Source: Fragilaria crotonensis (lineage: Eukaryota > Bacillariophyta > Fragilariophyceae > Fragilariales > Fragilariaceae). Taken from it: a DNA stretch of 60,826 bases. Positions 13,738 to 44,615 of the stretch are shown here, one piece after another (within the stretch, counting starts at the first letter, position 1; the number at the start of each line of letters is the position of its first letter). Under the pieces are notes generated by a model. It worked only from the letters and a program-made list of their open reading frames with translations, was not told the DNA's origin and ran no database searches. Location of the stretch: assembly GCA_022925895.1 (NCBI GenBank), contig JAKSYS010000366.1:1-60826 (forward strand). The letters are read 5' to 3'. A program made the position numbers and the translations under genes.

Positions 13738-16700
13738 ATGAGCGATAATGGCCTTTCTTACGAGGTTGACACAAAAATCAATGATGACGACCAGTACTAC
13801 GAAAGCAGAAAACCAGTGCCCGTGTCATTTGACATGATGACATTCGAATTACCGGATGCGAGCAAGGAACCGAGCGTGTATGAACCATCCATGAAAGAAC
13901 CGAGCTTGTACGAACCCACCACAAAGGACACACCTCCTGCTCCTCCAACTAGGAATGATCATTCACAATCTGCCTCCAACATTCGTCGGAAACAGAGAGC
14001 ATCACGACGAAACCTAATGGCGTCAGCCACACCAACCCCTGCACAGGACAACCTCAAGAATCCGCCACGGGAGATGCCTGAATCCATCCAAACAAGCAGT
14101 AACAGTAGTACGCCAGTCGAGCCTAGTCGCTCTTCGGAAACTGAAATGGACCCTGTTAGGGAAGCCAAGTGGACGGGCGAAGCTGAAGAAGAGTCCACAA
14201 TCGCTCGACGCAAAGCTATTCAAGAAATCATGAAGGACACATCGCTCAGCGCTGCCGAAAGGAATCAGAAAATACAACAGCTCATGAGTGGAAAGATTGT
14301 TATAGATCCAACACCATCCACACGGACCGGCGAGACCAATGACAACGTGTCGAAATCAATGCGAAAGAATGTCGAGGCAGTCAACATTGGCGGTGCTTCG
14401 GCCTCTTTCAACTCTTCAGGAAAAAATCGAAACAATCTCGACACGAAACCAGGTTTTACTGCGGTCAAAGGTACCGATACCAGGGCTGACATGAAAGCAC
14501 GACGCGAAATGGTTCCCATGAGTCCAGGAGATCAGAGAATAGGGAACATGGATAGTCAATCCGGTTCCGATTCCAAAGTGGGGTTCACAGCTGTTCGAGG
14601 GGAGGACTCGAGGGTCAAGGGTAAAGTGAGTCGAGGAATGGCACCAATTTCACCCGGGATATCACAATTGCAAACTGCAGAAGATTCCAAGGACAACCAA
14701 AGTGGAGATGTGCGACCAGGTGTGACTGCTGTCCGAGGCGAGGATGCACGAATCTCGCGTAAAGCCAACCGTGGTTCCACCACTGTAACCTTACCGTCAG
14801 ATTTGGTTGCAGCTCCGCAGTTTGATAACGACGAACCCACTCGTGCTGGTGGGCAAGTTTCGATGGATCGATCAGGTGCAATTGATGCCGAGAACTCCTT
14901 TCCTCCTCATCGATTCCTGGCGCATCACCCGTGTTGGGACGCGACTCACGAGTTTCCCGCAAGCTGCAATCAAGCTTGACTGTGCCACCGGTGGCTTCAC
15001 TAAAGGTGGATGATCCTTCCTTCTCATCGACTCCCGGAGTGTCGGCCATGCGGGGGAGTGACTCACGAATTTCGCGCAAGTTGCAATCGAGCACGATTGT
15101 TCCAGCCGTGGCATCATTGAAGCTAGATGATAGTGAATCCGATGAAAAACCAGCCTCTAAACCCGGCGCAGTCGTTTCCTATTCAAATTCGCGTGTGGCT
15201 CGAAAAATCGGTGTCGCAACCACGGCGAATGCATCCAATTCTGCCACCTCCTTTGCTTCCTACGATGTTACGATGGATGAACCCGGCGCCATTGCGCCAG
15301 GCAGTGCCATGTCAATGGCCGACGACTCACGGGTGGCTCGAAAGATGCAATCAAATTCGAATAAAGGTCCTGGAGTTTTCGCGTCAACTGATGATTCTCG
15401 CGTTCGACGAAAAAAGAGCGGGTCTAGACGCTCATCCAGTATATCAGATGGACGAGCTGCAGAAAACGCTGAAACCTTTGAGGACGAACCTGAGAGCCTC
15501 GCCCTTCCAGGCAGTGCCGTTGCATCAAGGAACGATTCTCGTCTCGCCCGAAAAATTGCGCAAGGAGGTACTGGTGCCGGCGCTCAAGCAGCATCCGACG
15601 ACACGGCTGTTTCCAAGAAAGTTGGTCGAACGCGAGGGGCTGCATTGGGCCTTGCGGCAGCGACCGCTGCAGCAAACATTGGTGCTGTTCAAGCATTTGG
15701 CGAAGATGAAGCTGCCCAGAAAAAATCATTTGTGCAAGACGAGCTATTCTCTACTGACGACGGCAATGATATCAATCCTGACGATTACCTCATGCAACAA
15801 GTTAGAGCAACGCAGCAAGCGCAACAGAAAAAGATTGCAAAGAAGAAGCCAGATAAAGATTTGGACGAATCCGAAGGGTTGCATAAAGACGGGGATGCTG
15901 CAGTCCCCAAGGTTCCTGGTGCCTTTTCTGTGAAGGGAGGACGAGGCTGGTTTACGGGGGGCTTTCGCCAGCGCGCCGCTCGGGGTATGGTACGCATTCG
16001 GAACCAGGTCATCTTGGACGCGGACGTTACCGCGGTTGCCGAGGATGGCATCGATGAGGAAGAAACTTGGTGGGATCGCGCTGACAAACCGACTCTGATT
16101 GTTGGTGCTTGCGTATTGGTATTTGCCATCATTGTCATAAGCGTCCCTGTTGCGCTTGCGGTAACGAAAGAAGATCCACCAACACCGGCGCCGACAAGCC
16201 CACGTTTCTTCGCTACGGATGACTTCAAACAATTGCTCGCCCCAGTTACGGATCCTGCAGCGTTTGAAAATCCAGAGTCTCCCCAGAGTCGCGCCCTAGA
16301 TTGGATTGTCTACGACGACGAATTGCAGCTTTTACCGAATGACGCGGCCACCATTCAGCGATACATCTGCATGGTTATGTACTTCGGCAATGGTGGCGAG
16401 AATTGGGACTTCCCGCAACCAGCTGTTGAATGGGGTTCTGGGGTTCACGAATGCGAATGGGATTACATCACTTGTGAATCCAACATGACTGTTGGGAAGC
16501 TGAACCTTCTTGAGCTAGGGTTGACAGGATCTTTGCAAGCAGAGATGGTGCATCTTTCACAGCTATCATCGTTGGATCTTGGTCGAAATAAGTTAAGCGA
16601 AGTCAGCTTCCCAGTTTTGCTTTTGCAAATGACAACATTGAGGTTCCTCTATCTTGATTCACTTGGCTTGAAAGGAACCATACCCAGTGAGATTGGCAAA

Positions 16701-17444
16701 CTCAATAAGCTCGAACAATTGTATTTGGGCTCCAACAGCTTCTCTGGTTCATTGCCGACCGAAATACAGGGATTGACTTCCATCGAGGGTTTCCAGGTCA
16801 ACACAAACAACTTGGAAGGCGACATCTTCAACATCGTTGGAAGCTGGCCTGTGCTCAAGAACTTAGATTTTGGTAACAACGATTTCATCGGGAAAATTCC
16901 GACGAATCTTCCTTCAAGTCTGGTGTCTTTGCGCCTCGACCGGAACAGTATTAGTGGCAGTCTTCCGACAGAATTGGGAGCGCTGAAATTTCTCAAGTCG
17001 GTAATTGTGACACAAAACTTTCGACTTGGTGGAGCCCTTCCTAGTGAGCTAGGGAGGTGCTCCTCACTGGAAACCCTGCAAATTGACTCAAACATGTTTA
17101 GCGGTAACATCCCATCTGAATTGGGCAACCTGCCTGCCATTCAAGAATTACGTCTTGGTCAGAACGAATTCACAGGAATGATTCCCTCAGCGTTGGGGAG
17201 CTGTACAACGTTGACCAGTCTTGATTTTAACAACAATAATTTCATCAGTGCAGTGCCGACCGAGTTGGGCAAGTTGACCGCACTGTCGTTGTTGTGGCTC
17301 CAATTCAGCAACTTGTCCGGCTCCATGCCGAGTGAAATTTGTTCTCTACGAACAAACAAGTTGATTGATCTTCAAGCCGATTGCAAATTCTCCAATGCGG
17401 AATTAAAATGCCAAGAGCCTGAATGTTGCACGCTTTGCCATTAA
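13738..17444 (+). CDS. Type II membrane LRR protein with long repetitive cytosolic region
   Basis: About 1,235 residues if one frame break near 14900 is bridged (one T apparently missing: TCCTTTCCTCC where the repeat expects TCCTTTTCCTCC). Residues 1 to about 780 are low complexity and carry roughly nine copies of a motif of the form PG-x-A-x(4)-DSR-V/I-S/A-RK. One transmembrane helix follows (TLIVGACVLVFAIIVISVPV, about 16095-16160). C-terminal to it is a cap with CEWDYITC and then about ten plant-type LRRs (LxxLDLGxNxLSG, G-IPSELG), ending in a Cys-rich tail (CQEPECCTLCH). Lack of an N-terminal signal and an LRR part after the helix imply a type II topology with the LRRs outside or lumenal. 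Such LRR proteins are expanded in diatoms. Ligand and role unknown. It converges with the methyltransferase, with 27 bp between stop codons. Confidence 0.85.
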
Positions 17445-23729: not shown

Positions 23730-26511
23730 TTACACGGAAACGGACGTTTGTCTTCTACGCACAGAACGCTGTCGGTTGTTGGGATGCCGGATATTTCTCT
23801 GCAACATGGCTACCACATCAACTACGTATTCCCACTGCCCGGCATGTATCCGCACTAGGCTTGATGATGAAGTCCTACTGACAGCGAAAGACTGAAATGC
23901 AGTTTCAAGCTCCACCTGGTGCGAGTCGGAAAACGGTGTCCAGTCATCGTCACCTTCGTACTCCCATATGAAGGTGATGCCGTTTCCCATCTCAACGTCT
24001 GGTGCACCCTCTCTGGCCTCATCCTCATTCTCGAACGGAGTGCGATTTCGATCACGCGAACCCCGGTAGTATCGAACTAAGTAGTCCGGATAAGCACGTC
24101 CATTCTCGTACACCACCCAAACTTGCGATCCAGCTGTGTGTCCGGTCACAGTGTTGTACTTTAAGTTTGTCACGGGGTCAGTAGGCGGAATGATAAGTTT
24201 CTTGCACTCGGCAGCTATTAATGGGCTCTCATCTCGATCCAAGAGAACTTCCTTGCCCACCAGAAGCTTCGTCAAGAACATCTCATGTTCGTCCTTCACA
24301 GCTCCGGGCCGTTGTACGGACGATGGAAGCAAACCAGAAGTACCAAGGAAAGGCTGGTAAGAGTAGCCTTTCGAGTAGCTGCTCTTTTCCGCAAAATAGA
24401 TCCCACGTCTACAGATAATGGTGAACAGAATGAGAAATCTCAACCCGACGACGCATACAACGCACACGACAATGCTTTCACATTCCAACTTACCCCCACA
24501 ATCCACTTCGAGAGTATTGCATCATGAAACCATCCTGGCGATCGTTGTAGATAACGCTTGGGTCGACACTTGACGTACCGTGCCAGACAGTCTTTTCGTT
24601 GTGATCAATTCCGTTCATTTCAAGTCGATCTTTGTGAAAGGAGTAATATGTCCAAATTGAGATGTTTTGGATCCTCCATAGCTTGGATATATGTGCATCG
24701 CTCATGTCTCCTCGCAGTCGATTGCACACCGCCCAATACTGCGTGTCATCAGGCAAGACTTCCACAAGGACTTCGTTAGAGCCGGACCACGTTTCTGGCC
24801 TTTCTATCAAAGCTGCTCGCTTTTGCATGAGCGATGCTTGACGTCGTTTGGCTGCTTCAACTTTGTCATCGATATCTATGATTTCGTCATCAATCTTTTG
24901 CATCGCCTGCATTCTTTTCTCAATATCCGACATGTTGGACTTGAGAGCAGCCTTCCCCCTGCGACTCCTCCAGTACTTGAGCAAAACCGCGACAAGGAGA
25001 ACCAGCAAAACGGAGATGACAGCTATTACCCAAATTTCAACAGGAACAGGGTACTTATCCGATGGAAAGGGTTGCGGGTTGCAGCCTCTCGCAGCAACAC
25101 AAATGCCAGTCCGATTTGGCTGAGCCAACGAAGTAGTGGCATCCCCGACCTCAACCCATTGTCCCTTGCCATCTATTTTCTGCATATTAAGTATTGTATA
25201 GCGAGGGTTGCTACGATCTCCCTCTGTTGTGAAACTGACATTTCCGCTAACGCCTTGGAACGTCAGGTTACGGAGTTGCGCAGTGACGAGTGACCCGATG
25301 CGGCGTGAGTTTCTTGAGACCATCGAAAGCGCTTTCACGAGGGCAAGAATCGAGTCAACCAGTAAGGGAGCAGTGAAGTCTGATGGTAGTTGGGACATCT
25401 CGCTAAGCCCCTGCACCTCTTGGAGCCGTTTGAAGTATGTCTGATATTCCTCAGCATCACTGTTCCTAAACGGTACCAAGCCAAGGTATCCTGGATATTC
25501 AGGCACGGCGAAGTCATCCGGTGGATCTCGACCGACCCAGGCTTGAGGTCCAACCCAAATTGTGTCATTTTGAAAGCCTATCTCACCAGCTTTTTTCAGA
25601 ATAGGATACGCATTGGTGTCCTCAGCGACTAGCAATATCACTCGTGAATTTATTTTCGGATCACCGGTTGGGACACCCTCCAAGGCTTTGACGACAGAAT
25701 CTGAATCTATTTTTCCTTTGTCGAAAGTAATCGTGGACGAGTACGCCACCTTTCCTTCCCATGGATTACTGCCGTCCACTTGGTGCATTCCCTTCCAAAG
25801 CTTTTCAAATGCAGTAGAAAAGTCGTTTGCATACTGCGTATCAGTGCTGAGAATCGAAACACGGTCCCACTGAAACGATCGCAGCAAAGCAACCATTGCC
25901 AGAGCTTGTCCCTCAGTATCGTTAGCAACCAGGCGGGAGAAGAGAGGAAAGTCGTTTTTGTCACTCAGTTTGTATGATGTGGAGCTTGGGGAGACTTGAG
26001 TAATATTTTCCAAGTTTGTGATACCTCCGACGGTAATCGATGCACCTGAACACCGAGGGCCCACCACACCATGAACAATTCCATCCCAGTTGTTTCGGAT
26101 TTTCCAATATGCCTCGGCAGCAGCAGTTGCCGCATTGCACGCTGTGTTGGTGATGTTATAATTAACGATCGTTCCGTCAGAGAAGATACCGTCAGGGAAG
26201 ACCTCCTTAACCCAACGATCTGTGTGATTATTGATCAACGAGAAGGTGAAGTCGACCAGTTGCTCAGTCCAATTAAACAACTCGGTGGTGTCAAAAAGCA
26301 CAGCGATGTGCACGACACTCTCGTTGGATGCGTTTTGCAACTCTCGGTGTTGCACGTCGATGCCTCCACCAACCACCTCCTTCTCGCATGGGCAGATCTC
26401 TGCTGGGGCGCTGCTCGTCGCGGCATTCGCGGAACCAAGGGGAGTGCATCCGCTCAACAACACGATGCTAGTCAACAACTTCGCAAGACGGCTTCCTTGA
26501 AGGAATCCCAT
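23730..26511 (-). CDS. Receptor-like PARP: ANF-receptor ectodomain, TM helix, PARP catalytic domain, WWE domain
   Basis: 898 residues from two exons, 26511-24494 and 24408-23730 (85-bp GTAAGT/CTGTAG intron), with no frame break. Signal peptide about 1-30 (LTSIVLLSGCTPLGSANA). Residues about 65-440 form a type 1 periplasmic-binding/ANF-receptor ligand-binding domain (VVGPRCSGASITVGGITNLE, QVSPSSTSYKLSDK, WDRVSILSTDTQYANDF) with several N-glycosylation sites. TM helix about 484-507 (IWVIAVISVLLVLLVAVLLK), then a basic stop-transfer and coiled coil about 515-560. The PARP domain (about 570-800) has WHGTSSVDPSVIYND, GLWGRGIYFAEKSSYSKGYSY and AYPDYLVRY. A WWE domain closes the protein (WEYEGDDDWTPFS ... 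MLQRNIRHPNNRQRSVRRR). The NAD-binding His and Tyr are present; the catalytic Glu position (YPEYL in tankyrase) appears to be Asp. Inferred role: ligand-controlled cytosolic ADP-ribosylation. Confidence 0.88.
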
Positions 26512-28004: not shown

Positions 28005-29314
28005 ACTTGGAGGTCTAGGTTTGGGAGGGGCGATTCGGACCGCACTACACTCAACAGCAACAGAACGAGGATAGCGACAGAAAGCTCCATGCTGGTGGGA
28101 TTGGTTGTTACTACTAGGTGAGCAGAAGCACTCATACAGATCCTGTTAAGATTTCCTGTTGCATTCTAGAACTGCTTGGGAATTCAAAGCGCATCGATGT
28201 GCAATTGACTTCGTTTTCAAGTTTGCTATGAACCCCGATTCTCGCATCAATCGTTTGTCAAAACCATCGCAAACAAGTCCAACATTGTACTCTACTAGCA
28301 TGATTAGCACACGTGGCGTCCCTTGCACGTGTATTATATGTACCCCGTTTACCCATTTGCATCAACATATATGTACTATGTACTGTACCTGGTACCACGT
28401 ACTTGTACTGGGGTACGAGGTACGACTTTTGTCATGCTTGGTGTTTGTGTTGAGTTCGACTCGTGCTATCATGATTTAAGGCTACTGTATACTGTGCAAG
28501 ACCGTAGGGGACATGCCCATGCGGTAGCAATGTCAACAGTAGAGAATTCGGTATCTTTTGTTATAATTCTTAATTTGATATTAACATCACCAACATGCTG
28601 CCCTTCGGGGCATGATCACCTTGCGAAAGGTTCCGAATAGATTGTTGATCGTACAAATAGAAGTTAACAGTTTATCAGACCCAGACGCTGTGCCCGCTGC
28701 AGGGCAACCTTGGCAGCGCCAACGTCGTTTCGGTATATGGCAGCTTGGCTGGGCTGAATCCAATCGACGACGAATGTGTGACCGGATTGGCAAGTGCGCC
28801 GGTTACATGGGTAGCAAGAATGAGCCCCAGCCCTCAAAGAATTGGTTGGAACCTGGTGACGGTGATTTACTTTGTTTGACGACGTCGAGATACGCTTTGT
28901 CAACCGGCATCGTGGTGGTCGAAACATGGATATTGTCCGTAGCGCCTCGTGCGGAAGAAACGCACCAATGCAATTGATGGAAGGTTCGTCCATCTGTCAG
29001 AGGGGTTGTTTCAAGAGGATCGTTGCTACCGTTTGATCGAACGGGGCAATCGGGCGACGAGTTGGAAAGGATTTTTCGGTCTTTCCTTTTGTGATACTAG
29101 TACGTTCGGTTGGAATCGCCACAACCGACGCTATGTTATCAGGCACGCGGTTACATATGCGATGGCTTTTGTCAGTTGGCGCAACTTTGATCTAAATATA
29201 TTAGATCGTGGGATCCGTTAAGGGGCTGGTGGTCGCATGGTCGTTTCACTGTCTGCTCGGTTCTTGGACAAGTTGTGTTTCACTCGTCTTCACACAATTA
29301 TCGAAATTTGAAAG
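28005..29314. other. Left flank and probable 5' leader of the copia element
   Basis: 28005-28600 shows no gene and is rich in GTAC words. 28600-29314 precedes the gag start and may hold the 5' LTR and leader. No TG...CA-bounded LTR or primer-binding site could be fixed, since the 3' LTR is missing for comparison. Confidence 0.4.
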
Positions 29315-31304
29315 ATGGCCGATGCTGTCAACATGCGCGCAGCCTTGGAAAGGTGTGGTCTTAATCAGACGACTGCCACCTATGTGATGACCGATCAAGG
29401 CTTCGACTCCACCGAAGAACTACTCATGGCGTCGAAAGAAAGTTTTGACACGATGATCAAGAACGCCATCAAATCTTCACCACCTGATGTCATTTTCTCA
29501 ACTGCCTCGATTAGGCGGTTGAATGCGTTTAAGTATTGGGCTGAGGAACGCCACATGTGTGGTTTACCAGTGACGCCTATTCTTTTTACCGCCGCTGTCT
29601 TAGCAGAATACATGAATGTTTTACGTTCCGATGAAATCGAGATTGCTGCCAGAAAGGACCAGGTTCCGACAAAGCCGGACCCTTTGAAGGCTGAAAAGGA
29701 TTGGTTCAAATTCTGGGAGAAACTCAAGAATTATCTCGGGCGAATTCGCGGTGCAGCGAAGATTCCGTTGTCGTACACGATTACAGATCACGATGTGATT
29801 ACGGGTGAGATTCGTAGTGCAACGTATTCTACGCATGCATACGAAGAAAATCATCGATATTGTCCTGTTGTCGGGTGAACATTTCGCTGTGGACAACGTG
29901 AGTTTGTGGGAAATCATCAAAAGCCTCGTTATTGATGGTTTTGGATGGTCATTTGTCAAGCGATTTGACAGGACGATGGACGGAAGAGGTGCAGTACTTG
30001 CACTGCGTCGTCAGTGCGAAGGGAAAACGTCAGTCAAGACCCGAAAAAACAAGGCCTACGCTTCAATTGCTTCGTCCAATTACCGTGGAATCAGGAAGCA
30101 GTTTACCTTTGCTCAATATGTAGCAATTCACCTGGCGGCACATAATGAGCTGGAGGACTGCAACGAGCCAATTCCCGAAACTAAGAAGGTGTCGGACTTC
30201 CTTGCAGGAATTTCAGACTCATCACTTGAGGCCGGGATCACGTGTGTCTTGAGTGAAGACCGATATCAAGATAGCTTCGAAGCGACGCAACAGTTCCTTG
30301 GGACTCTGGTCGCTAATCAGATGATACATCGTCAAGCGAAGCGTGGTGGGAGCGATGATCGTAATGTGTCTTCGGCTGACAGCGGAAACAAGAGCCATGC
30401 GAATGCAAAGGGCGGCAAGAAGAAACTTGAGGCTCGTTTTTACTCGGCGGAGGAGTGGAAGCAGCTCACGTCCGAGGAGCGGTCTAGTAAGGTTATCGAG
30501 CTCAAGAAACAACAAGGGTCAAAAAGCAAGGATAAGAAGGGTTCTAGCAAGAGGAAGGCACCCTCAGCCGAGTCAACTAAAGACAAGGATGATGAGGCTG
30601 CACCAAGCGATGGCGATGACGCTCAAGAGACCGATGCGACGGTACAAGGTGGGAATGAGTTTGGCCGTGGTGCGCACAAGAAGGCTAAGAAGAAAGCCAC
30701 GATTTCGGCAGTTTCTTCTATGGCTGCGTTGCCAACACCGAGGACTGTGCGCCATGTTATGATGGTATCCCGCAGAGTTGTGATGGATTCGAGTCGATTT
30801 GATGTGAACGGCGGGGGAAGGATGGAACTCGATACCCACGCAGACACATGTGTGGCGGGTAGCAATACGGTGGTTCTTGACCTAACCGGTAAAGTTGCTT
30901 CAGTGTCACCCTTTTGTGATTCTGAGTTCAAGGCGCTCGAGGATATTCCGATCGCAACTGTTGCAACCGCTTATGATTGTCCGTCAACTGGCAAGACGTA
31001 CATTTGGTGATTAACGAGGCCTTGTATTTTGGGGACAAGATGAAGCATTTGCTGCTTTGTCCCAACCAACTGAGGGCACATGGATTGAGGGTACATGACT
31101 GTCCGCAGCAATATGATTCTGATTCTACGCACAGTATTCATATACCGGAGTCTGACCTAACCATACCGCTAACACTACGTGGTGTCATCTCTGGGTTCAC
31201 TACACGGATTCCTACGACGGCAGAGCTTGAGGATTTGGCAAGACACGTCGACCTTACCTCCGAGGAGGAATGGGAACCTTATTCTGCTGAGGAAGAACGT
31301 GATA
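29315..31304 (+). pseudogene. Copia gag and protease
   Basis: Starts MADAVNMRAALERCGLNQTT, the gag-like N-terminus. After a one-base loss in an A run (about 29850) it continues LSGEHFAVDNVSLWEIIKSL to a Lys/Ser-rich linker. The aspartic protease active site is LDTHADTCVAGSNTV (about 30828-30870, DTxA form). Another one-base loss in a T run (about 30999) shifts into LVINEALYFGDKMKHLLL. The first LINE is inserted after EEERD. Known role of the family: particle formation and polyprotein cleavage. Confidence 0.75.
31292..31304. repeat. Target-site duplication of LINE 1, left copy
   Basis: GAAGAACGTGATA, repeated exactly at 32946-32958. It lies within copia coding sequence. Confidence 0.9.
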
Positions 31305-32945
31305 ATAATAAAACCTAATTATAGGGTTAGCACCGGCCTTGTCCATTTTATCAAAAACTAGGCGTGTACCCCGGTACAGCGAATCCCGTGAAATCCGCGA
31401 TACCTTATCGTTTGTGGATGTTGCGTCGCAACTGTGACTCCTTCATTTCTTACTGTATGTTTTCACCCTTGACTCGGAAGAAATCCGTCATCATCATCTG
31501 TTTCTTTGATCCATCTATTTCGAACCTTTCTCTCGCCTTTCGCATGTACTGTAACCACCGTCTTCGAACCGACGAACGTGCGTTTATTATCTCCTCCAGT
31601 GGCCGTTCGCAGAAGTGTCTATCGCTCGCATTGACCATGTGTACCTGCTCGTGTAGACGTGTTATTTCGTCGAATTCGGGATATCGAAGCTGTCTGCAGG
31701 CAATCTTATCAGTGTTGTGTAAATGGCTGTTCCGAGCTTTCCACAGCTGCATACTGAGCGTGTGTATCGCCATAGTCACCTTCCGCATAGTCTGACTACC
31801 CTTTGCCTCATCATAAACACCTGTGCCGTCGTCGCGCGCCGCAATGTCGCTCCAAGAGGCGGCTAAAATTCCTCTTAGTGCTGCTGACCACCCAATTTGC
31901 TGTTGTTGATGGAGTGCCTTCTCGACCGTGTCTAAATGTCTCGATGGTATCATCGACCTATCTGTGTCTGCTATCTCCTGATTGAGCCAACCCAGAACCT
32001 GACTTTTGATCACACGTGTTGCCAATGGTGCCCCGAGAGCGTCCATAGTCTTCCGAAAATTTGTAATAGCCTGGTGGCGCCCAGGATTTGCGTGACACTG
32101 TAAAACGTGCTCTGAAGTTTCTTCGGTGGTAGAACAGCAGGGACAGAGTAACAAAGTCGGGTTTTTGATCGTTGCCACGCGGTATCGTCGAATTCCCGTG
32201 TGGCGCTGGTCGTACATCAACTCAGTCTGTGCTACTTGTCCTGCCGGTGACAGTGAACGACAAAACATCCCGAGTACTTTGAAATCAATCATATCCCACA
32301 CTCTGTTGGACCACCTGTTTCTTGCTTGGAGGTAACTTCTGAGATGGTAACCGTTAATGTGAAACCGTATACAATCTTCCACTTTTCCTACTTGTCGGAT
32401 ACCATTTATTCTCACTGAGACTCGTTCTTCGGGAACATGATCAGTTTTTTCGCGCGATTGACCGCTGTCTCTGTTCTCACGAAACCATGTCGCTAATTCA
32501 TCAGCGCGATTGTTACGCGCCACATCTGGGGATTGGTTACCAATGGACCCAGCTGTCTGGTGACCTTTGACCCACTTCGTACTGACTCGTATGCCCAATT
32601 CACATTTCATAGCTCGAATCTGTGACAAGAGATCCACGTTCTCTGGTTGCCTTCGTCGATGATGTTGTATCTTTGTATGCTTGTCCACATTGGACATAGC
32701 TGCTTTGCTATCACATACCCATCAAAACTTACACTTGTATTTCGTTCCCCAGTGTCTGGCTAACAATGTAAGCAGGAGCATCGGAGCCGCGAACCCTGCA
32801 ATTTCGCATCGAGTGGAATTCGCCACATCACGAGGACCATCAACTGGTCCTGCTCCTTCGTAAATGGTTGTATTATCAGCCGTGCTGATTGTCCACCCGA
32901 ATGTCCCTCTTGTACCTTTCAGTCCTCCATCCGTTGCTATATGGT
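31305..32945 (-). mobile_element. LINE (non-LTR) fragment 1, 5'-truncated, antisense to copia
   Basis: 1,641 bp flanked by a 13-bp target duplication, the mark of target-primed insertion. Only the 3' third is present: RNase H and the C-terminal zinc-binding region, then a 3' UTR. 5' truncation is usual for LINEs. The tail lacks a long poly(A). Same family as the full-length LINE at 33630-42392 (shared GPVDGP, DDCIRFHxNGYH-like and CPCC segments) but clearly diverged. Confidence 0.9.
31450..32945 (-). pseudogene. LINE 1 RNase H and zinc-finger C-terminus
   Basis: Begins within RNase H (HIATDGGLKGTRGTFGW, with the first catalytic Asp), GPVDGP and NSTRCEIAG (the Glu). A one-base shift near 32700 leads to CDSKAAMSNVDK (second Asp) and KWVKGHQTAG. 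The C-terminal Cys-rich stretch is LLCPCCSTTEETSEHVLQCH. It ends MMMTDFFRVKGENIQ-stop at 31450. No endonuclease or reverse transcriptase remains, so it is a dead fragment. Confidence 0.8.
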
Positions 32946-33629: not shown

Positions 33630-36600
33630 CACTTTTCACAGTCTAAGTTTTCGAAACTACGTTCTGTCCGTCGTCCGTCCCTTAGTATTCTTCCAACGTG
33701 GTGTTTTCGTTGAAACTCACCATGATCGACAAGTCGGCACCAGCCGTCGCTCTCCCCTTCGACTCCCCAACTCCTCCACATGATCCCATTTTCGACTTCG
33801 ACACCTCTACCTGGATTGATCCTCCAGTTTACGTGACAACGCTCCCTGAAACAACGCCAGAATCCAACATTCGCGAAATGACCGAAAAAGAATATCGTGA
33901 CTCCACCACTCCTACCTTGTGGCACCGTTACATTACTCTTGGCCGTTATGTCGTAGATGGTTTCACGTTCGACTCAATCATGGAAGACGGTGTTATCGAT
34001 CCTCTCAAGATGCATTGTCTCGTCTGGTATCAGTATGCCTATCATCTTGATCAAAAGATAGACATACCTCCCAAGCTCCAAGCCTGGGGAGCGACGAGAT
34101 CACAACCTTACTTGGCAAAGCATGCTGATTCCGCCTTCAAACTTGACACCAACATCACTACCTGGAAAGAGTTCTCTCGAACCCAATCTCTTTCCAATCC
34201 GTGGTCTGAAGTTCCATCTAAGTCGAACAAGCTCAAAAAAGCCAATCCTACAAAGACTTTTGTCACGGCATCATCTCTCCTCTCAAACCGTTCCAAACCA
34301 GGCACTATTGTTGAGGAGACATCCAAAGCTAGCACTTCCACGGTGTCCAGAGGACAAAAACGCCCTTCGGATCGCGACGAACAATCAGCTGCTTCAGATG
34401 GCAAACAGTCCGCGTTGATTCCTACTCTCAACGTCCCTGTATGTGATGGCACCCATCGAGTTACTCTGCGCTGGAAGGTACCTCTTGACGTTAATCAACT
34501 CTCGCGCAATACTCAGCAACTGAAGGAGGAGATTTATAAGCTCCTGGATGACCTTTTCGATGACGATGATGGCTTTCTATACAAATGGCAACACTCTGGA
34601 ACTGATGTGAATAACTCCATCTCCAAAATGTCTCCAGACGAAGTTCGTCAGTATATCTGTCCCTCTATTGGAATCATACCTTCCAAATCGATGATTGTTA
34701 TCCCTATTCGTTTCGGATTCTCCAGCACAAACCCCAGTAAATGGAGGAATCTTGAGACCACAAAGGAAAAACTCGACAAACATGATGTTACTGTCTCGTT
34801 CTCCAATTGCACAAGTATCAGCGGAAAATTGGTTGTTGCCGGCTATATTCTACTCAAAGCTCCTATGACAACGCACCGTCTTAGGTATCTGCAGAGTCTT
34901 CGACTGATGTTACCACAATCTACGTCCCCTTTTGACATTCTCCTCCATAAACGTACTCCCCCTGGACCAACAAATTCCACACCTGGCGGTACAGTGTGGC
35001 AACAAGAATGTTCATGCTCTCAGCGAAGCATTAGCTTCTATTTTAACTGGTGAAAGCTCGGCTCTCTACATCCCTCGGTTTGCCTTTTCCCAGATGACGG
35101 ACTCAGAAGCGCACGCTTTGTTCCAAACCCACGACGAGTATGTTAAATCCCTTCGTTGGCTACCCCTCTCTCCTCTTCTCTCGAATTTGGACCGACCTCG
35201 CAAAGAGTACCAACCAGATGGAAGTTTCATTGAACGCACCACCCGAGAATGGGCTAGGAGCATCAAAGATCTTGACGGGGAAATCATCTGCTCAGTGTGA
35301 CGTTGTTAATGGTGGTCTGGACCAATTGCCATACCTCTTGTTTACACCACCATACACCGAAGCTGCAACCTTGGCCCTAGAAGACTACCGCAGACGTCTT
35401 TATCCGTTCACGCAGCGCGAAGCTCAATTCCGCGAAAACGTCGGTCCTCCTCCCTACATCCAATTCAGCAAAAGTGTTATTGCAAACTTGGATTTCATCA
35501 AACGTTTATCGGCAACCAAACATTCGTCCTCACCCTCTCCTACATCCAAAGATTCGGAAGTGGAACAATGTTCGGTCACCACCCCGGAATCTGGTATTAC
35601 AGATTCATCGTCCGTTAGTCAGATCACGCGTCCTCTTACTTCCGCTGAATCACTCCGCCAACAATACAGTCAACGACGTCACAAATCGGATTCTTCTGGC
35701 GACCAGCAGTCTGATGATTCTTCCACTGCAGGATCAACGGTTACTTCTCCTTCAAAGTTGAGCGATGGCCGCATGTCCACCAGTTCTGCTAAGCTAAGAG
35801 AACTTGATGTTGCCATCCAACGGCAAAAGAAAACCAATGAAAAGCAGGATGCCAAAAATTCTGAGCGGCTTTCCCATATCGAACGGAAACTCCATCGGAT
35901 CGACGATATCGATACCAAATTGGATGAAGTACAAACGGATTTTGGGCAAAGGCTAACTATTTTCGAGTCTCGCATGGTTGAAACGGTAAAGGGTCACATC
36001 GAGTCCTCACATCACAACATGGAAAACATGAATACAAGCCTTGAGAAACTGATGCTTGTTGTCAATCGCCTGTTGACACACAGTGGAAATCCCAGCAACA
36101 ACTCTACACTGGATCCGATGAGTGTCTCTGACCCGATCGATCCCTCGTTGGACACTGGTATTGTCGCTCGCCCTCATACCCATCATCTCGACGAGGAACA
36201 AGTGAATTGTGCATCTCATTCCAACTCCAGCTCCTCTCGCTCCTCGATGTCTTCCGAATCCCTAAGCGCCATTCAGTCGCCTGAACACAAACGCCTTAAG
36301 TCAGGTCAGAAGCCATCCAATGACCCTGTCCGTCGCCAGCTCGCCCGGGCCATGGAAGAAGCAAATCAGCCTGTCTCCTCGCCACCAACCAACTCCTCGC
36401 AAGGGTCCCTCGACTCTCTCGATGAAGCAATGCTACAACTGGAACACATCGCTCAAGCCAATAAGAGCAACACAGCATCATCTGTTGCTGAAAACGATAA
36501 CCCTGACCCTGAGAGTCAATACACAGCAAGTCCACCAAATCAAGAAGATAAGGACACAAATGCAACCCCTCTCATCGTCGGGCATCGCAACCATAGCAGT

Positions 36601-39600
36601 CCGAACGCCACGAGTTTCCGCCGACAGCCCATTGATCCTTCTATTCCCCTCGTCCCAGTTTCCCGTTTGCTTTCTATCCCCTCCACCCGACCCGGACGCC
36701 AACCACGTCATACAAGCATTGACCCGGCACCCTCGGTCTCCTATGGCGATCCAGTGATACAAAAGCCCACCGGATCGATCAGGCTCTTTTTTCAAAACGT
36801 GAAGGGTCTTACCTACACTTCCACCAAAGAAGACTACAACTATTACCTAAAGTGTTTGCAGGGCCTCGATGTGGACATTATGGGATTATCTGAAACAAAT
36901 ACATGTTGGTCCCATCATCACTTGTCGTCTGATTTCCGCTCAACCTTACGTCGATATGTTCGTCAAAGCAAAACTGTGTTTGGAATGGTCTCTACGGACA
37001 TTGATAAATGTCTACAGTCAGAATCATTCCAATCTGGGCAATCTCACGAGTATTCTTGGTTCTCTCGCATCTCGAGTTGATGGTTCGGATATTTTGGATG
37101 CTACTGGATTGGGTCGATGGAGCGGCGTCAAACTGGCAGGTCCCGATAACAAAAAATTATCCATCATCACTGCGTACAGAGTTTGCTCAGGCTCTCCACA
37201 AACCTCTCCCATTGGAAGTTCGTTTCTTCGGGAATACGAATTTTTCAGAGAACACAACCACCCATCACCAAATCCAAGAAGACTTTTCTTTGTCGACCTT
37301 CAGAAAGTCATCTTGGACCTCCAGGAATCGGGTTACAGTACTATTCTCATGCTTGATGCAAATTCAACTCTGGACGACAAACAGCTCACGGATGTACTTG
37401 CGAGATGCGGTCTCCAGGATTTACATTCCCATGATCCGCCTCCCTCAACCTTCATTGGTTCGGCTCATCGCCGTATTGATTTCATATTTGGCTGTGCAGA
37501 TGCTCGACGGCATGTTATTCGCAGTGGATCTCTGGCGTACACAGAGGGACCTCAATCCGACCACCGAAGCTTGTATGTAGATCTTTCTCCGGAATTCATG
37601 ACAACTCCTCCTTGGCAGTCCATAAATTCCCTGCAATCACGGGATCTTTACACAGGTAATCCAGAAAAGGTTACGACGTACCATAATGCTATGCTATCTT
37701 ATTATGCTCAACATCGGATGATAGAACGAATTCAACATCTTTATGATGTACGGGACTCCATGGATCGCGACGAAATTCGTTCGGCACTCATCAAATGGGA
37801 CAACGACCAAGGACGGGCCATGGAACTCGGCGAAAGGACTTTACGACGCCCTCCTCAGAAGTGTGCCTGGTCGCCGACATTGCGGAACTCAGCTATACTA
37901 CGCAGGTACTGGCTTCTTCGCCTACGAGAGAAACTACGAGACGAAAATTATGCAACGACCTTCTGTCGATGGCAAATGGAAATTCAAACGAATGATCCGG
38001 CCTTCCGACTCCCATCATTGGGACAGAGCTTATCGATTGATCAGATCCGTTTGTCTTTGAACCGAGCCAACAGGGAATTTCGTCGTATTCAAAAACAATC
38101 TGTTCCACTCCGGCTACACACCTATCAAGAGCTATTGGAGACCTACCAAGAGGATACAAATCCCGCTACCAAAGAGGAGTCAAGACGCAAAGCAAAGATT
38201 GTCCAGACGACTATAACTGGTGAAAGTATCCGACACGTGTTTGGGAATATTCGAAAGATTGTCCGCCCATCAGAGCAGTCTGGGCTCTCGAAAGTCATCG
38301 TCCCTCAACCACTTCGGCCCTGGATATAGACACCTATTCGGCGTATCAAATAACTCAAGACACTCCCAGCGAAGATATCCTGTGGGAAACAATCGTTACT
38401 CGGGAAGAGATAGATCGTCACCTGCTCGAATACAACCGCGACTCATTCAGAGCAGCATCTTCTTCCCCGTGCGGCCATGGGGTCATTCATGATGCACTTA
38501 CGTTTACTAGCCTCTCTCCGGCTTCTGAAGAATTACTCGCTGGAAATGTACCGCCTCACTGGGTTTCTCGACAATTATCTCCGGGAATTCCTCGCTTCCT
38601 TTGTCATCCCGTCGACGGTTATCAATCATGGCGAAATCCCAACGGATATATCGGAAGATGATGTGCTTCGAGGATTCAAAGCATGGAAGGAGCGTACGTC
38701 AACCTCTCCGTCGGGGCGCCATCTTGGACACTACAAGGCTATTATTCAACACCCTGTACTACTGAAATGTTTCGTGCAGTTTATGAATATCGCTGTATCC
38801 CGTGGCATCGCTATTCCCCGCTGGTGCCAGGCTACAAATGTCATGATTGAAAAAGATGTGGGCTCGCCCAAGATACATCGACTACGCATCATCCATCTCT
38901 TCGAAGCAGATTACAACTTCTTCCTCAAGCTACAGTGGGGCCACAGGCTAGTACGTCATGCCGTCTCGTTGGATCTACTACACGACTCTCAACACGGCTC
39001 GATACCCCGGCGTACTGCGATGGATCCTATAATGCTCACTCACCTTACCTCAGACTTGTGTAGGATTCTCAAACACGACCTCGCTCGTTTCGACAATGAT
39101 GCGTCTGCGTGCTACGATCGAATCATCGTTGCCCTCGGAATGCTCGCGGCTAGAAGGTGCGGTATGCCACGTAACGCCATCCGACTTCACGCTGAGGCAC
39201 TCCAATTTATGCAGTATACAGTTAAAACCATTCATGGGATTTCTGAAGCCAACTACCAAGGGACACCATTTGCTCCTCTGTTTGGTACCGGACAAGGAAG
39301 CGGCGCTTCTCCAGCTGTCTGGCTTACCCTTGTGGTTCTTCTTCTTCATACCTTCGATCGTCTGATACCTCACAGAATGAATTTTGTACCCGTTTCTGGC
39401 GCGAGGAGGCATTCACGATCCTCTGATGCTTTTGTTGATGATACCTCTGTCGGCTTCACCTCAAGCGACGACACAAGTTTCACTGATCTCATCGCTCGTC
39501 TCGAAGAGACAGCCCAAACCTGGGAGAAGCTTTTATCGCTTTCCGGTGGCAAGTTAAATCTCACTAAGTGCTCATGGTATGTCCTCCGCTGGGAATGGAA

Positions 39601-42392
39601 AAACGGACGACCAGTCATCAGAAAAATACAACAAGACGATCCCACAATCGCTCTCACCCAGGGTGAGTCTACGACAACAACTACTATCAAGAGGAACGGT
39701 CTGCAGCAATCATCCCGCATGTTGGGCGTATACCTCAACCCGATGGGCGACTTTTCGGATCACCTACACATGTTGAAGAAAAAGGCGGACGACTTCTCCC
39801 GCAGTATTCTTTCCCCGCGACTAACGGAAACAGACGTCGCCATCTTCCACCGATCCATATACATCCCATCTATGCGTTATAGCTTGGCTGCTATAGCGGT
39901 TGACGAAGAATCTCTGGCGTCTGTACAGACCAATGTCATCAAGTCTATGCTTCAAAAATTCCATCTGAGCAGCACGATTCCGACGTCACTCCGCCATGGT
40001 CCCACAGAACTTGGAGGGTTGGGTCTTTATGACCTACGCACCGAAGCAGGGATAGAAGCTATTAAATTTCTCCGAAACTCCTTGTACAGCGACTCAGAAG
40101 CGGGAAATCTTATACGTCTAAATCTACAATACTCTCAACGAGAGGCCGGAGTTGGATTCTACTTGCTCGAGGAACCGCGGAAACACATATCATACTTGAC
40201 CCCATCGTGGATTTTATCCATTCGCCAATTTCTTGCCAACCACAATATGTCAATTAAAGTGTCAGATATCCACAATGACCAGCTCCAGGGACCGACGGAT
40301 GAATATATAATGAATGCCTCCCATCTCCAGCGCTACAGTCCTGCTCAACAACTCGATCTAAATCTAGTTCGAACTTGGCTCCAAGTTACGACGCTCGCCG
40401 AGATGTCTGATCCAGAGCGTCCGAACCGAATTCTTTTGTCCTATCTTGATGCCAAACGTCCGGATGGGTTTCAAATGTCAGACACATGGCCCCGCCAACT
40501 CCAACCATCCAAAGCTCAGGTCCGCTTGTGGAAACGCTTCATCTCGTCGTCCTTTCTCCGCTACATTCCATACTGGAAGAAAACCCCGGTTTCAAAACCT
40601 TCACAAACTGCGATGTCCCACGAGCCCAGCACACCTGTCAATGACATGGAGTCTTTCGACGAATATCTCTACTGTACTTTCACGAACTGAACGACGATTA
40701 CTCGATGGCTTGGAGCAAATGAGCTCCGACATAAAAATCTGGAGGGCCTTCCGTTCGAAAGCTCGGTTACATCTGGCATCCGACGGCGGACTTGGTGAAA
40801 TGTCAGCTACCCACGGTTGGGTACTGAGCTCGGGTAAAGAGGTGCTTTATCAATGCTCGGGACCGGTCGACGGTCCCATCGATACAAACTCATCGACAAG
40901 AAGTGAGCTCGGTGGATGCGCGTCGTCACTATTATTCCTCTCATCTCTCTCCGGTTTCTGGGGTATTCGTCACCGTTGTTCGTTCCGTTGGTACACTGAT
41001 AGCACTTCCGCGATCAGCCGTTTTCACAAATTCTGCGGCCGAGGACATCGTCCCACTCGCATGCCCCCCGATTCCGATCTCTTGTCCATTATTTCATCGC
41101 GCCTAAGAGACCTCAAGCGTCCATTTAAACCTCGATGGGTCAAGGCACACCAAGATAACTCTATGGCGTACGATAGGTTGCCTTTGTCCGCTCGTTTAAA
41201 TATTGATGCAGACTTTCTCGCAACTCGATATCGACAACATGGCCGCCTTCGCGCGATCGAAACAATCGACCACAGCTCGAATCAACAAGTTTCGATCTAC
41301 ATAAACGGTATCCCAGTCACGAGTCAATACGATGACTGCATCCGCTTTCATGTCAATGGATATCATCAGCGCCAATATGTTCAACATCGCCACGACTGGG
41401 ACAATAAGACCTGGGATTCAATTGACTTCCACACCTTTGGTAAGCACTTCAAACGCCTTCGACCACATCATCGGGTTCAGCATTTCAAGTTTGTTCATGA
41501 TCTACTCCCCTTAGGGGAGCGCCGTCACCGCGAGGCCACCATAAAGGATGATTCGTTGAAACTCTGCCCTTGCTGCCAAGCCTCAGACGAGACTTCCTTC
41601 CATTTTATTCGGTGCACTTCCAACCCAGTACTGCAGTCCAGTCTTGCTACGTTACGGTCTGACATTGTCACGAGCGACATCCATCCAGTTCGATATCTCC
41701 TGGCTGATGGTTTTTGCCACACGATCCAATCGGAAACACATTATTCTCCCACATTCACCCAATTCCCACTCCACTTCCAAGACCTCATCTCTGACGCACT
41801 GACCAATCAACGTCAGATCGGGTGGGACAACTCGCTGAAGGGTTATTTTGCCAAGGAATGGGGTCGGATGGCCCAGTATGATATGCATGGCAACGCTCGA
41901 GACATCCGAAAGGAGAAACACGCATGAAGGAGATTATTAGCGCATTGAGTGCGCATTTTCGACGCCTGTGGATTTCTCGGAACGGAGTACTACACTCTCC
42001 AAACGACGCTATTCTTGCAAGCATTCGATCCGCGGAGTCGGTGGAAATAGAGTACTATCATAGCCGGCCTCACCTACTTCGTACTGGGGACAAACACTAC
42101 TGCGACCGACCTCTATCATCCATCCTGTCGGGCACACCAGCCACGAGGCGTCGATGGTTACGAAAGGTCAAACAATCCTCGGCGGACCTCACTAAAGATG
42201 GTACACGGCAGACCTTGCTTACAAATTTTTTTCGCAGATCGAGTGGTTGAGTCACGGTTCAGTCCCAACAATTTGAATTTATTTTGATTTTCTTATTCTC
42301 GCGGATTCCCGCTGGAACTGGGTACACAGTAGCGGCCTACCGGCCGGTACATGGTGAAAACCCATTAATAATTAGTTCATATTTTATTTTAT
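33630..42392 (+). mobile_element. Near full-length LINE with APE endonuclease, RT and RNase H
   Basis: 8,763 bp bounded by a perfect 15-bp target duplication, inserted in copia integrase. Order: N-terminal gag-like region, coiled coil, AP-type endonuclease, reverse transcriptase, RNase H, CPCC zinc region, short 3' UTR ending AT-rich (TTCATATTTTATTTTAT). Because nearly the full coding length is present with short frame breaks only, this insertion is much younger than the copia or LINE 1 decay would suggest. No LTRs. Confidence 0.92.
33722..42250 (+). pseudogene. LINE polyprotein: gag-like, endonuclease, RT, RNase H, zinc region
   Basis: Probably a single long frame from MIDKSAPAVALPFDSP (33722) to the stop at 42250, now broken at about seven places (near 35045, 35260, 37000, 38320, 38555, 40685 and 41925). 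Coiled coil about 35770-36090. Endonuclease about 36778-37585 (RLFFQNVKGLTYTS, DIMGLSETNTCW, MLDANSTLDD, SDHRSLYVDL). Reverse transcriptase about 38600-39620, with FDNDASACYDRI and SSDAFVDDTSVGF as catalytic Asp blocks. RNase H about 40770-41240 (LASDGGLGE, RSELGG, WYTDSTSAI). Cys block LKLCPCCQASDETSFHFIRC. The endonuclease is in the same open frame as the upstream coiled-coil region (35140-37080), so no ORF1/ORF2 stop separates them. Confidence 0.85.
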
Positions 42393-42407
42393 CTACTCGC
42401 CTTGGCA
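42393..42407. repeat. Target-site duplication of LINE 2, right copy
   Basis: CTACTCGCCTTGGCA, identical to 33615-33629. Copia coding resumes at once with QNRAELDVREIKR. Confidence 0.92.
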
Positions 42408-44207
42408 GAATCGAGCGGAACTAGATGTGCGGGAGATAAAGAGATCGATAAGGAGGTTTACGAAAAGATCGGGTTCCCCGAAACGTCTATGGTGTTTCCT
42501 TGGGGAGTTGGTTGCCACTTTGCGGGGTCTGACAGCATATGATACTCCAAAATTACAAGGGCGTTGCGCGACCGAGCATGCTTTAGGATACACACCTGAC
42601 ATTTCTCCTTGGGTTCAACATGCTTGGTATGAGAATGTTTGGTACCGAGATGCCGATGGGGAAAGCAGGATCGGGAAGTGGCTAGGGTTGGCGGCAAACA
42701 TCGGAGGAGGTGATTGTTTTTGGATTTTGCCCTTGTCGGCAAGATGGTCGATCACCCGAGATAAATTGGCCGGTGACGCTGTCAGGAGGGCAATTGAATC
42801 TTTAGACCTCTCGATAAGAGACAAGATTGGGGATGGCGTGGAAGATGGAATTGCACAAGAAAAGGTTGGAGCTCTACCGGTGAATGGGGATTTGTTGGAG
42901 GATTTGGATGATGATACAGCTTTCGACGAAGAGCCTGGCGTGCCTGAGATGGATGAGTATACGCTAGAGACTTTTGATGGATATTTAACTGCATCAGTCA
43001 TGCTACCTCGAGGCGATGAAGTGCTGAAAGCACAGGTTGATGCCAGGAAGAGGGACATCAATGGGAATCCAATCGGTAAAGCCAACTCGAATCCGATTTT
43101 GGATACGAGGGAATATGTTGTTGAATTTGAAGACGGCACTTCGGATGTGTACGCTGCGAACATGATTGCTGAGAACATGTACGCTCAGGTGGACAGTGAA
43201 GGCAAATCTCACGCGTTGATATCCGAGATAGTCGATCATGAGTCAGACGAAAGAGCAATGAAGGTTGCTGACGGCACCTTTGTTGACAAGCAAGGCCAAC
43301 AGCGGCCGCGGATTACTACTCAGGGATGGCGACTCTTGGTAGAATGGAAAGACGGGACGACAACCTGGGTACCTCTGAAGGATTTAAAGGAGTCGTTCCC
43401 GATAGAAGTGGCTGAATATGCTGTTGCGAACAAAATTTCAGATCAACCCGCTTTCAAATGTTGGGTGGACGAGACGCTTAGGAAGCGACATCGTATCATC
43501 AAGAAAGTGAAATCAGCCAAGTATTGGAAGCGGACGCACAAGTTTGGTATCCGACTACCGCATTCAGTTGAAGAGGCTTTGAAGTTTGACGAGGAGACAG
43601 GGACTGACTTCTGGCGAAGAGCAATTGAAAAGGAGATGAGAAATGTTTTGCCTGCCTTTGAGTTTACAGACGACGATAAGATGCCTATCGGCTACCAATG
43701 CATTAGATGCCATATGGTATTTGATGTCAAGATTGGCGATTTGACAAGGAAGGCGAGGTTTTGCGCGAACGGTAATGAAACGGATCCCCCGAAGGATTCG
43801 ACTTTCTCGACCGTAGTTTCCAGAGACACCGTTCGACTCTTCTTTTTGATGGCAGCACTCCACGATACTGATATACTATCAGCCGACATACAGAATGCCT
43901 ATTTGAATGCTCCGGTGAAGGAGAAGTTATACACAATAGCTGGTAAGGAGTTTGGTCCCAAGAATGAAGGACGTCCGGTAATGATCGTGCGTGCACTTTA
44001 TGGGTTGCGGAGCAGCGGCAAGTCTTTTCGCAACTTTCTCGCAAATAATCTTCGCGAAATGGGTTACATAAGTACTAAGGCAGACCCGGACCTGTGGATG
44101 ATGCCAGACACCAAGACTGATGGTACGGAATACTACAGATACGTTATATGCTATGTCGATGATGTGGCAGTTATGATGGCGGAACCTAAGCGGTTTATGG
44201 ACGAACT
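42408..44207 (+). pseudogene. Copia integrase C-part and truncated reverse transcriptase
   Basis: One open stretch from the integrase Glu region (RAELDVREIKRS) through the integrase C-terminal domain to RVT_2-type reverse transcriptase: FWRRAIEKEMRNVLPAF, SADIQNAYLNAPVKEKLY (catalytic Asp), VRALYGLRSSGKSFRNFL and ICYVDDVAVM (YVDD box). It ends after KRFMDEL at 44207. The codons that follow (HLRVPKPSRLLDM) come from the repeat that begins there, since the same codons occur at 60422. RT thumb and RNase H are missing. Confidence 0.85.
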
Positions 44208-44615
44208 ACATCTAAGGGTGCCAAAACCAAGTCGGCTCTTGGATATGAAAAACCAATCATCTTTGATATGACAATTTTTTGTTCATAATTTTTACCTTAA
44301 ATACAGGTAAAAACTTAGGACTAAAGAGCTTGTACATCATGTGTATGAAGTGGGTTTCTTCGTATTTCCTGAACTCGGAAATTTATTCTTCCTGAATTTT
44401 TTAATCTCTTGCATAGGAGCTCATACTTTGTATTCTTGAACTCCAAAATTTCAAATCCTGAATTCTACTGACTCATTTTTACTAGAACTCGAGTGGAATT
44501 CCTGAGCTCTTGGACTCAAAATATATGAACTATACCACTTCTTTGTTTGTGATAATGAATTTCAATTCCTGAACTTGACATCCGAAAAGAAGAAGTTTGC
44601 TGTAAAGTGTGTATG
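44208..44615 (+). repeat. Dispersed repeat, copy A, with TTCCTGAA-type subrepeats
   Basis: Begins ACATCTAAGGGTGCC and aligns over its length with 60422-60826 with scattered mismatches and small indels. Inside it, words of the form TTCCTGAAYT/TTCCTGAGCTC recur about every 30-60 bases (near 44367, 44388, 44436, 44455, 44502 and 44563). Dense subterminal motifs like this are typical of DNA-transposon ends, where they bind transposase. No matching inverted end was found in the window. Confidence 0.85.

Follow-up and report, generated by a model that had tools for sequence, protein, structure and literature searches.

Kinase, cyclase and phosphatase tails are all known among receptors with a built-in enzyme. 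Among described flytrap receptors, the Venus kinase receptors dimerise and respond to arginine (PMC2680970, PMC4026697). On the side of the enzyme, a 2014 survey of >1900 PARPs describes transmembrane and H_lectin domains in Rhizarian PARPs, where clade 3 members are said to have both, as well as a transmembrane domain in a sponge PARP; membrane PARPs in protists are therefore not new (PMC4245714). In diatoms, PARPs were once reported missing (PMC2964712) and were later found in Thalassiosira oceanica (PMC4245714).

Here, we describe a gene that joins these two themes in one chain. It lies in a window of 60,826 nucleotides, the whole of contig C299 in a genome of 62.1 Mb and 881 contigs, at 23730-26511 of the minus strand, and is read from 26511 to 23730. 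The order along the protein is a signal-peptide-like start, a Venus-flytrap/ANF ectodomain, a transmembrane helix, a coiled coil, a PARP domain and a C-terminal WWE domain. Both the coordinates and the domains match those given in an earlier note on this DNA, which had named no strand. The features are as follows:

24494..26511, minus strand: exon 1, an open frame with residues 1-672 plus two bases, covering the signal-peptide-like start, ectodomain, transmembrane helix, coiled coil and first part of the PARP domain
24409..24493, minus strand: predicted GT-AG intron of 85 nt, at a position common to two paralogues; three others read through in frame
23730..24408, minus strand: exon 2, an open frame with the rest of the PARP domain, a linker, the WWE domain and the stop
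26422..26511, minus strand: signal-peptide-like N-terminus (by eye), residues 1-30, basic and hydrophobic, with an ANA end at residue 30
25072..26316, minus strand: ectodomain of the Venus-flytrap / type 1 periplasmic-binding kind, residues 66-480, of which Pfam matches 111-445
24976..25041, minus strand: single transmembrane helix, residues 491-512, then basic residues; Kyte-Doolittle maximum 3.34
24826..24942, minus strand: juxtamembrane coiled coil, residues 524-562, heptad pattern in 6/6 paralogues
24069..24825, minus strand: PARP catalytic domain and the lead-in before it, together residues 563-786, split by the intron; H644, Y677, Y684 and V769
23754..23969, minus strand: WWE domain (PF02825), residues 820-891

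Once 24409-24493 is removed, 898 residues can be read in one open frame; with the intron left in, the frame hits a stop inside this segment. The intron ends are GTAAGT...CTGTAG, and splicing joins LWG to RGIYFAEKSSYS; the two exons meet within the PARP domain. The splicing model is predicted from the same intron position in three loci and from three intronless homologues, which supports the proposal of a one-intron gene free of frame breaks. When the spliced protein was searched against Pfam, as had been suggested for it, ANF_receptor (111-445; E 2e-45, 155.8 bits vs cut-off 25.4), PF00644 PARP (605-786; E 1.4e-11, 44.7 bits vs cut-off 26.7) and PF02825 WWE (820-891; E 1.9e-12, 47.8 bits vs 21.1) each scored above the curated cut-off.

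A protein search of the genome returned 18 matches, which were grouped into nine loci. The intact architecture of ectodomain, transmembrane helix, coiled coil, PARP and WWE is present at six of them, namely C299, two on C94 (C94a and C94b), C328, C843 and C658. The three other loci are damaged or partial and comprise one on C49 that is much like C658 and has stops in its PARP part, one on C81 with ectodomain pieces and stops, and one at C94:3.4-5.0 kb with ectodomain and transmembrane helix, one in-frame TGA and no PARP. Because five further loci have the whole architecture, it exceeds chance and is not an assembly join, and we regard the fused architecture at 23730-26511 as confirmed by this comparison to be genuine. 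With at least six intact genes in the genome, the window gene does not stand alone. The intron lies at the same place in the window gene (85 nt) and in the two intact C94 copies (71 and 76 nt), while in C328, C843 and C658 no intron interrupts that site and the frame reads through. Upstream of this intronless clade no signal peptide was recognisable by eye; these copies may have a 5' exon that escaped notice, or may have arisen by retroposition.

Identity of the window gene to the two C94 paralogues is 69% and 66% over exon 1 and 77% and 72% over exon 2. Compared with them, the window gene has an overall dN/dS of 0.21 and 0.27, with values of 0.11 and 0.16 for PARP, 0.25 and 0.33 for the ectodomain, 0.22 and 0.24 for the transmembrane helix plus coiled coil, and 0.26 and 0.31 for WWE. 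The only loose region in these comparisons is the N-terminal 58 residues (0.78 and 0.54), and across the three intron-bearing copies this segment ranges from 0.54 to 0.94. Taken exon by exon, the PARP domain is constrained in both of its parts, at 0.08 and 0.13 vs C94b and at 0.07 and 0.25 vs C94a. Other paralogue pairs have overall values of 0.30-0.39, with single regions reaching 0.98 (juxtamembrane, C658 vs C843). Between the window gene and C328, synonymous sites are saturated for most regions. PARP dN/dS was computable for 6/7 pairs and lies at 0.11-0.18 in these; PARP is the lowest main region in 4/6 pairs, with a juxtamembrane stretch and WWE lower in one pair each. Between the two clades, ectodomains are 33-43% identical and PARP domains 63-70%. 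Altogether, the aligned copies show that the fused unit has been duplicated and is under selection, and they suggest a family with a conserved output and a faster-changing input.

At C94:3436-4965, sequence related to the ectodomain and transmembrane helix of the window gene is followed by what looks by eye like a kinase-like glycine loop instead of PARP, and kinase-like and zinc-finger-like sequence is seen by eye downstream in other frames. Pfam found ANF_receptor only in the scanned piece, so that the kinase there is a reading by eye. The locus may be a relic, or a chimera in which the output domain was exchanged.

The input side was compared with solved structures using a profile of five paralogues, C658 being left out for its deletion. 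With E no higher than 0.001, the profile matched 202 sequences in the PDB. Among the best 60 of these 202, mGlu7, 4 and 8 stand at the top (mGlu7 8.3e-24), followed by mGlu6, 3, 5 and 2 and by calcium and taste receptors; 1jdn, the clearance receptor for natriuretic peptides, matched at 1.6e-14. In mGlu1, the alpha-amino-acid motif is described as S165, T188, D208, Y236 and D318 (PMC2680970, PMC4026697). These places are occupied in the window protein by S155, T178, D198, Y227 and Q323, as mapped via the mGlu7/4 alignments, in which the first four residues are spaced as expected; S176 was placed at mGlu1 S186. The mapping assumes an mGlu1 residue numbering obtained by counting. Over the six paralogues, the equivalents of S165, T188 and Y236 are kept in 6/6, that of D208 in 4/6 and that of D318 in 2/6. 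Counted per copy, the motif is 5/5 in C328 and C843, 4/5 in the window gene (Q at D318) and in C658, and 3/5 in C94a and C94b; two paralogues have S at the D208 place, and C658 has G at the D318 place in addition to its ectodomain deletion. Since the ectodomain is near mGlu receptors and the motif is mostly kept, an amino acid or derivative appears the likeliest ligand, perhaps tuned differently in the two clades. The idea of amino-acid-like sensing thus gains support from the best 60 of the 202 matches and from the motif residues. A single-sequence structure model of the window ectodomain was unusable (mean pLDDT 38.8). The genome contains 21 ANF matches, 12 of them outside the receptor-PARP family, and several of these 12 continue by eye into GABA-B-like seven-transmembrane regions; GABA-B-like seven-transmembrane flytrap proteins have already been reported in diatoms (PMC3727952).

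Between ectodomain and PARP, each of the six paralogues has one strong transmembrane-like stretch. Residues 379-399 inside the window ectodomain reach a marginal Kyte-Doolittle value of 1.69, and the hydrophobicity scan found no such stretch after the PARP domain. The N-terminus of the window protein stays below the threshold of 1.6, which only the C94b copy exceeds there (10-30). Within residues 524-566, the heptad repeat is hydrophobic at 7/8 a/d positions, a value equalled by 25 of 2000 shuffles, and across the paralogues the heptads were matched by 4 to 27 of 2000 shuffles.

On the output side, a PARP profile built from four paralogues plus the C89 protein found PARP15 as the nearest solved structure (E 6.9e-34), with PARP14, 12 and 10 following and then tankyrases and PARP13. 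The PARP15 alignment begins at a PETW/PDTW motif that directly follows the coiled coil. All six paralogues have H644, Y677 and Y684 unchanged, and the third triad residue is V (V769) in the three intron-bearing copies and I in the three intronless ones; the C658 copy has GWG instead of GRG beside the triad Tyr. Human mono-transferases are listed mostly with I, L or Y at the third position (E in PARP3 and PARP4), polymerases with E, and among human PARPs V is given only for the inactive PARP13 (Y-Y-V), which also lacks the His (PMC7955679). Because V769, or I in three paralogues, stands where polymerases have E, we expect a mono-ADP-ribosyltransferase, with mono-ADP-ribosylation and not polymer as the predicted product. 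The proposed PARP output holds as far as the ADP-ribosyltransferase domain goes, and in the absence of the polymerase Glu it is narrowed to a predicted mono-transferase.

For the WWE domain, a profile of five paralogues placed HUWE1 nearest among solved structures (4.2e-5), ahead of PARP13 and Deltex. Ligand contacts of the HUWE1 domain are reported to include Y1658, Q1667, N1669 and R1676 (PMC11269756). By alignment spacing these correspond to Y867, Q876, N878 and R885, which are kept in 6/6 paralogues; the HUWE1 W1619 place is taken by Y or F. Reading of ADP-ribose by this domain is plausible. Iso-ADP-ribose is the internal unit of poly(ADP-ribose), and structures of HUWE1 and DTX1 are described in which WWE binds ADP-ribose or ADP (PMC11269756). 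Since a mono-transferase does not itself make iso-ADP-ribose, the suggestion in the earlier note that output and readout sit in one chain would apply only if the WWE reads ADP-ribose or ADP, or polymer made elsewhere.

Taken together, the protein is probably a type I, single-pass, dimeric receptor mono-ADP-ribosyltransferase gated by a ligand. Its domain anatomy and the selection on it can be read from the loci themselves, and its likely working mode is modelled on that of Venus kinase receptors. An extracellular alpha-amino acid or a similar small molecule would close the flytrap, and this closure would rearrange the dimer. The transmembrane helix and coiled coil would pass the change on and switch on the PARP domain, which would then mono-ADP-ribosylate the other chain of the dimer or cytosolic proteins close by. 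The WWE domain at the C-terminus could retain the ADP-ribosylated products at the membrane or feed back on the receptor, and the PARG-type and macrodomain matches of the genome are candidates for erasing the mark.

One alternative starts from the active site. The protein could be a receptor pseudoenzyme, whose inactive PARP fold would act as a binding scaffold while the WWE reads ADP-ribose made by others. Valine at the third triad position, as in inactive PARP13, the kept ligand contacts of the WWE and the GWG that replaces GRG beside the triad Tyr of C658 are consistent with this, and a scaffold role has been suggested for plant RCD1/SRO proteins (PMC4245714). However, H644, Y677 and Y684 do not vary in any of the six copies, PARP dN/dS remains at 0.11-0.18 in 6/7 pairs and is the lowest main region in four of those six, and hydrophobic or Tyr residues (I, L, Y) are listed at position three of human mono-transferases (PMC7955679); we judge this reading unlikely. 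A location in endomembranes is quite unlikely as well. The flytrap would then face the lumen of ER or vacuole and sense a luminal metabolite, with the PARP domain in the cytosol, and the protein would not be a surface receptor. Plasma membrane and ER are not distinguishable by sequence alone, and the only human membrane-associated PARP, PARP16, is described as an ER protein whose catalytic domain lies in the cytosol; yet PARP16 is tail-anchored (PMC10789625), as opposed to the type I layout seen here, and the nearest ectodomains, among the best 60 of 202 PDB matches, belong to surface receptors.

Improbable in our estimation is an ectodomain that lacks a ligand of its own and pairs with class C GPCRs encoded in this genome, which would link the transferase to G-protein signalling. 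In favour of this, 12/21 ANF matches fall outside the family, several of them running into GABA-B-like seven-transmembrane regions by eye, and class C receptors are described to work as dimers (PMC2680970), but the pocket motif is largely kept, which would be needless for a pure dimer module. The chance that two neighbouring genes were joined by the assembly or by a wrong gene model is negligible. The exon junction does fall inside the PARP domain and the model is drawn from sequence alone; against this stand six loci with the whole architecture, of which three are read in a single unbroken frame, the conserved intron position and the constraint on both exons, and the assembly-join reading was rejected on these grounds.

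In addition, the genome contains a second family of membrane PARPs. In the loci C89 and C41, a transmembrane helix is followed by a stretch that looks by eye like a coiled coil, then by WWE and finally by PARP; the two are 76% identical from the coiled coil on. The C89 ectodomain has repeats, one of which matches dCache_2 (2.4e-9, 37.2 bits vs cut-off 26.5); the C41 ectodomain resembles these repeats. The Pfam scan of C41 gave no Cache match. C41 is an unbroken frame that starts near the contig edge. In C89, the WWE-PARP frame overlaps the transmembrane frame but is read in another phase, which places an intron or a frameshift between the two. These loci suggest that the membrane PARP theme arose twice, with Venus-flytrap and with Cache-type sensors. 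All eight PARP loci without stops that we found look membrane-linked, C89 with the reservation about its phase, and diatom ADP-ribosylation may therefore be partly about sensing. The PF00644 genome scan gave six matches, five over the cut-off, and missed the intron-split window gene, so that soluble intron-split PARPs may escape it. The PF02877 (PARP1-type) scan of the genome gave no match, and as the controls were also silent this does not show absence. Among possible erasers, PARG_cat was found at one locus in two pieces (C656) and Macro in six places, one of them marginal; no ADP_ribosyl_GH (PF03747, ARH-type erasers) was found in the genome, with 5/14 controls matching and with the limit that intron-split domains could escape. 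At C273:129691-130071, a macrodomain is followed by eye by a sirtuin-like start in the same 413-residue frame, possibly a SirTM-like fusion.

The surroundings of the gene were inspected as well. In the window, 24/30 2-kb bins have 45-50% GC. The silicon-transporter family has 19 matches in the genome, 18 over the cut-off, and matched 1/14 control genomes, below the cut-off, so the genome is that of a diatom. At C97:29749-33762, three tandem silicon-transporter units lie in one 1456-residue frame. An 852-residue open frame at 14886-17444 of the window (plus strand) appears receptor-like by eye, with a transmembrane-like stretch and then leucine-rich repeats. Near the receptor gene, long retrotransposon-like frames were seen by eye at 29312-31010, 31450-32721, 33686-41927 and 42376-44271, which suggest reverse transcriptase, RNase H and Copia-like proteins.

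The pairing of flytrap and PARP was not found in the open-access papers searched, and it may be annotated somewhere we did not see. The coupling had been proposed as undescribed: its output domain appears new, while receptor-enzymes with such an ectodomain are known as Venus kinase and natriuretic-peptide receptors. If the proposed reading is true, an ADP-ribosyltransferase tail would add a further signalling currency at the membrane and would couple a small molecule in the surroundings directly to the consumption of NAD+ in the cell. Whether receptor ADP-ribosyltransferases form a receptor-enzyme class beside kinases, cyclases and phosphatases, with two sensors in the diatom and ADP-ribosylation as a direct output of chemosensing, we consider evenly balanced.

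Searches of prokaryotes and viruses yielded pattern matches only. No relative was confirmed for the PARP domain (0/30 stretches in genome_contigs, 0/153 in viral_contigs), for the ectodomain (0/60 in genome_contigs, 0/66 in viral_contigs) or for WWE (0/25 in viral_contigs), and these collections say little on other diatoms.

Compared with known PARPs, the window protein shares its PARP domain, an H-Y-Y site with a hydrophobic third residue and WWE with PARP10/12/14/15 and the WWE-bearing PARP7/11, from which it differs by its membrane receptor layout. Moreover, its WWE follows the PARP domain, whereas WWE precedes it in the human PARPs described (PMC11269756). Plant SRO/RCD1 proteins have an N-terminal WWE and a C-terminal RST, unlike the C-terminal WWE here, and the Pfam scan of the window protein gave no RST match. 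PARP16 and the transmembrane PARPs of sponge, Rhizaria and rice likewise place a PARP domain on a membrane protein, yet their descriptions name no flytrap ectodomain; in the PARP16 type the transmembrane helix is C-terminal, after PARP, whereas here it precedes PARP (491-512 vs 605-786).

Among flytrap receptors, class C GPCRs (mGlu, CaSR, GABA-B) have the nearest ectodomains, with the residues for the alpha-amino-acid group largely kept, but they span the membrane seven times, in contrast to the one strong helix (6/6 paralogues) and enzyme tail here, and the Pfam scan of the window protein found no Cys-rich domain. Natriuretic-peptide receptors of the guanylyl cyclase type share the Pfam ectodomain and the single transmembrane helix; the match to them (1jdn 1.6e-14) is weaker than that to mGlu7 (8.3e-24), and no cyclase domain appeared in the same scan. 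Venus kinase receptors of invertebrates differ in their tyrosine kinase output, in place of which the window protein, from a diatom host, has a PARP-type transferase plus WWE and no kinase domain in the Pfam scan; their flytraps are reported to group near GABA-B (PMC2680970), whereas the window ectodomain has its best PDB matches among mGlu receptors. As described, they nevertheless offer the same plan, with a flytrap carrying an amino-acid motif, one transmembrane helix, a cytoplasmic enzyme and an expected dimer.
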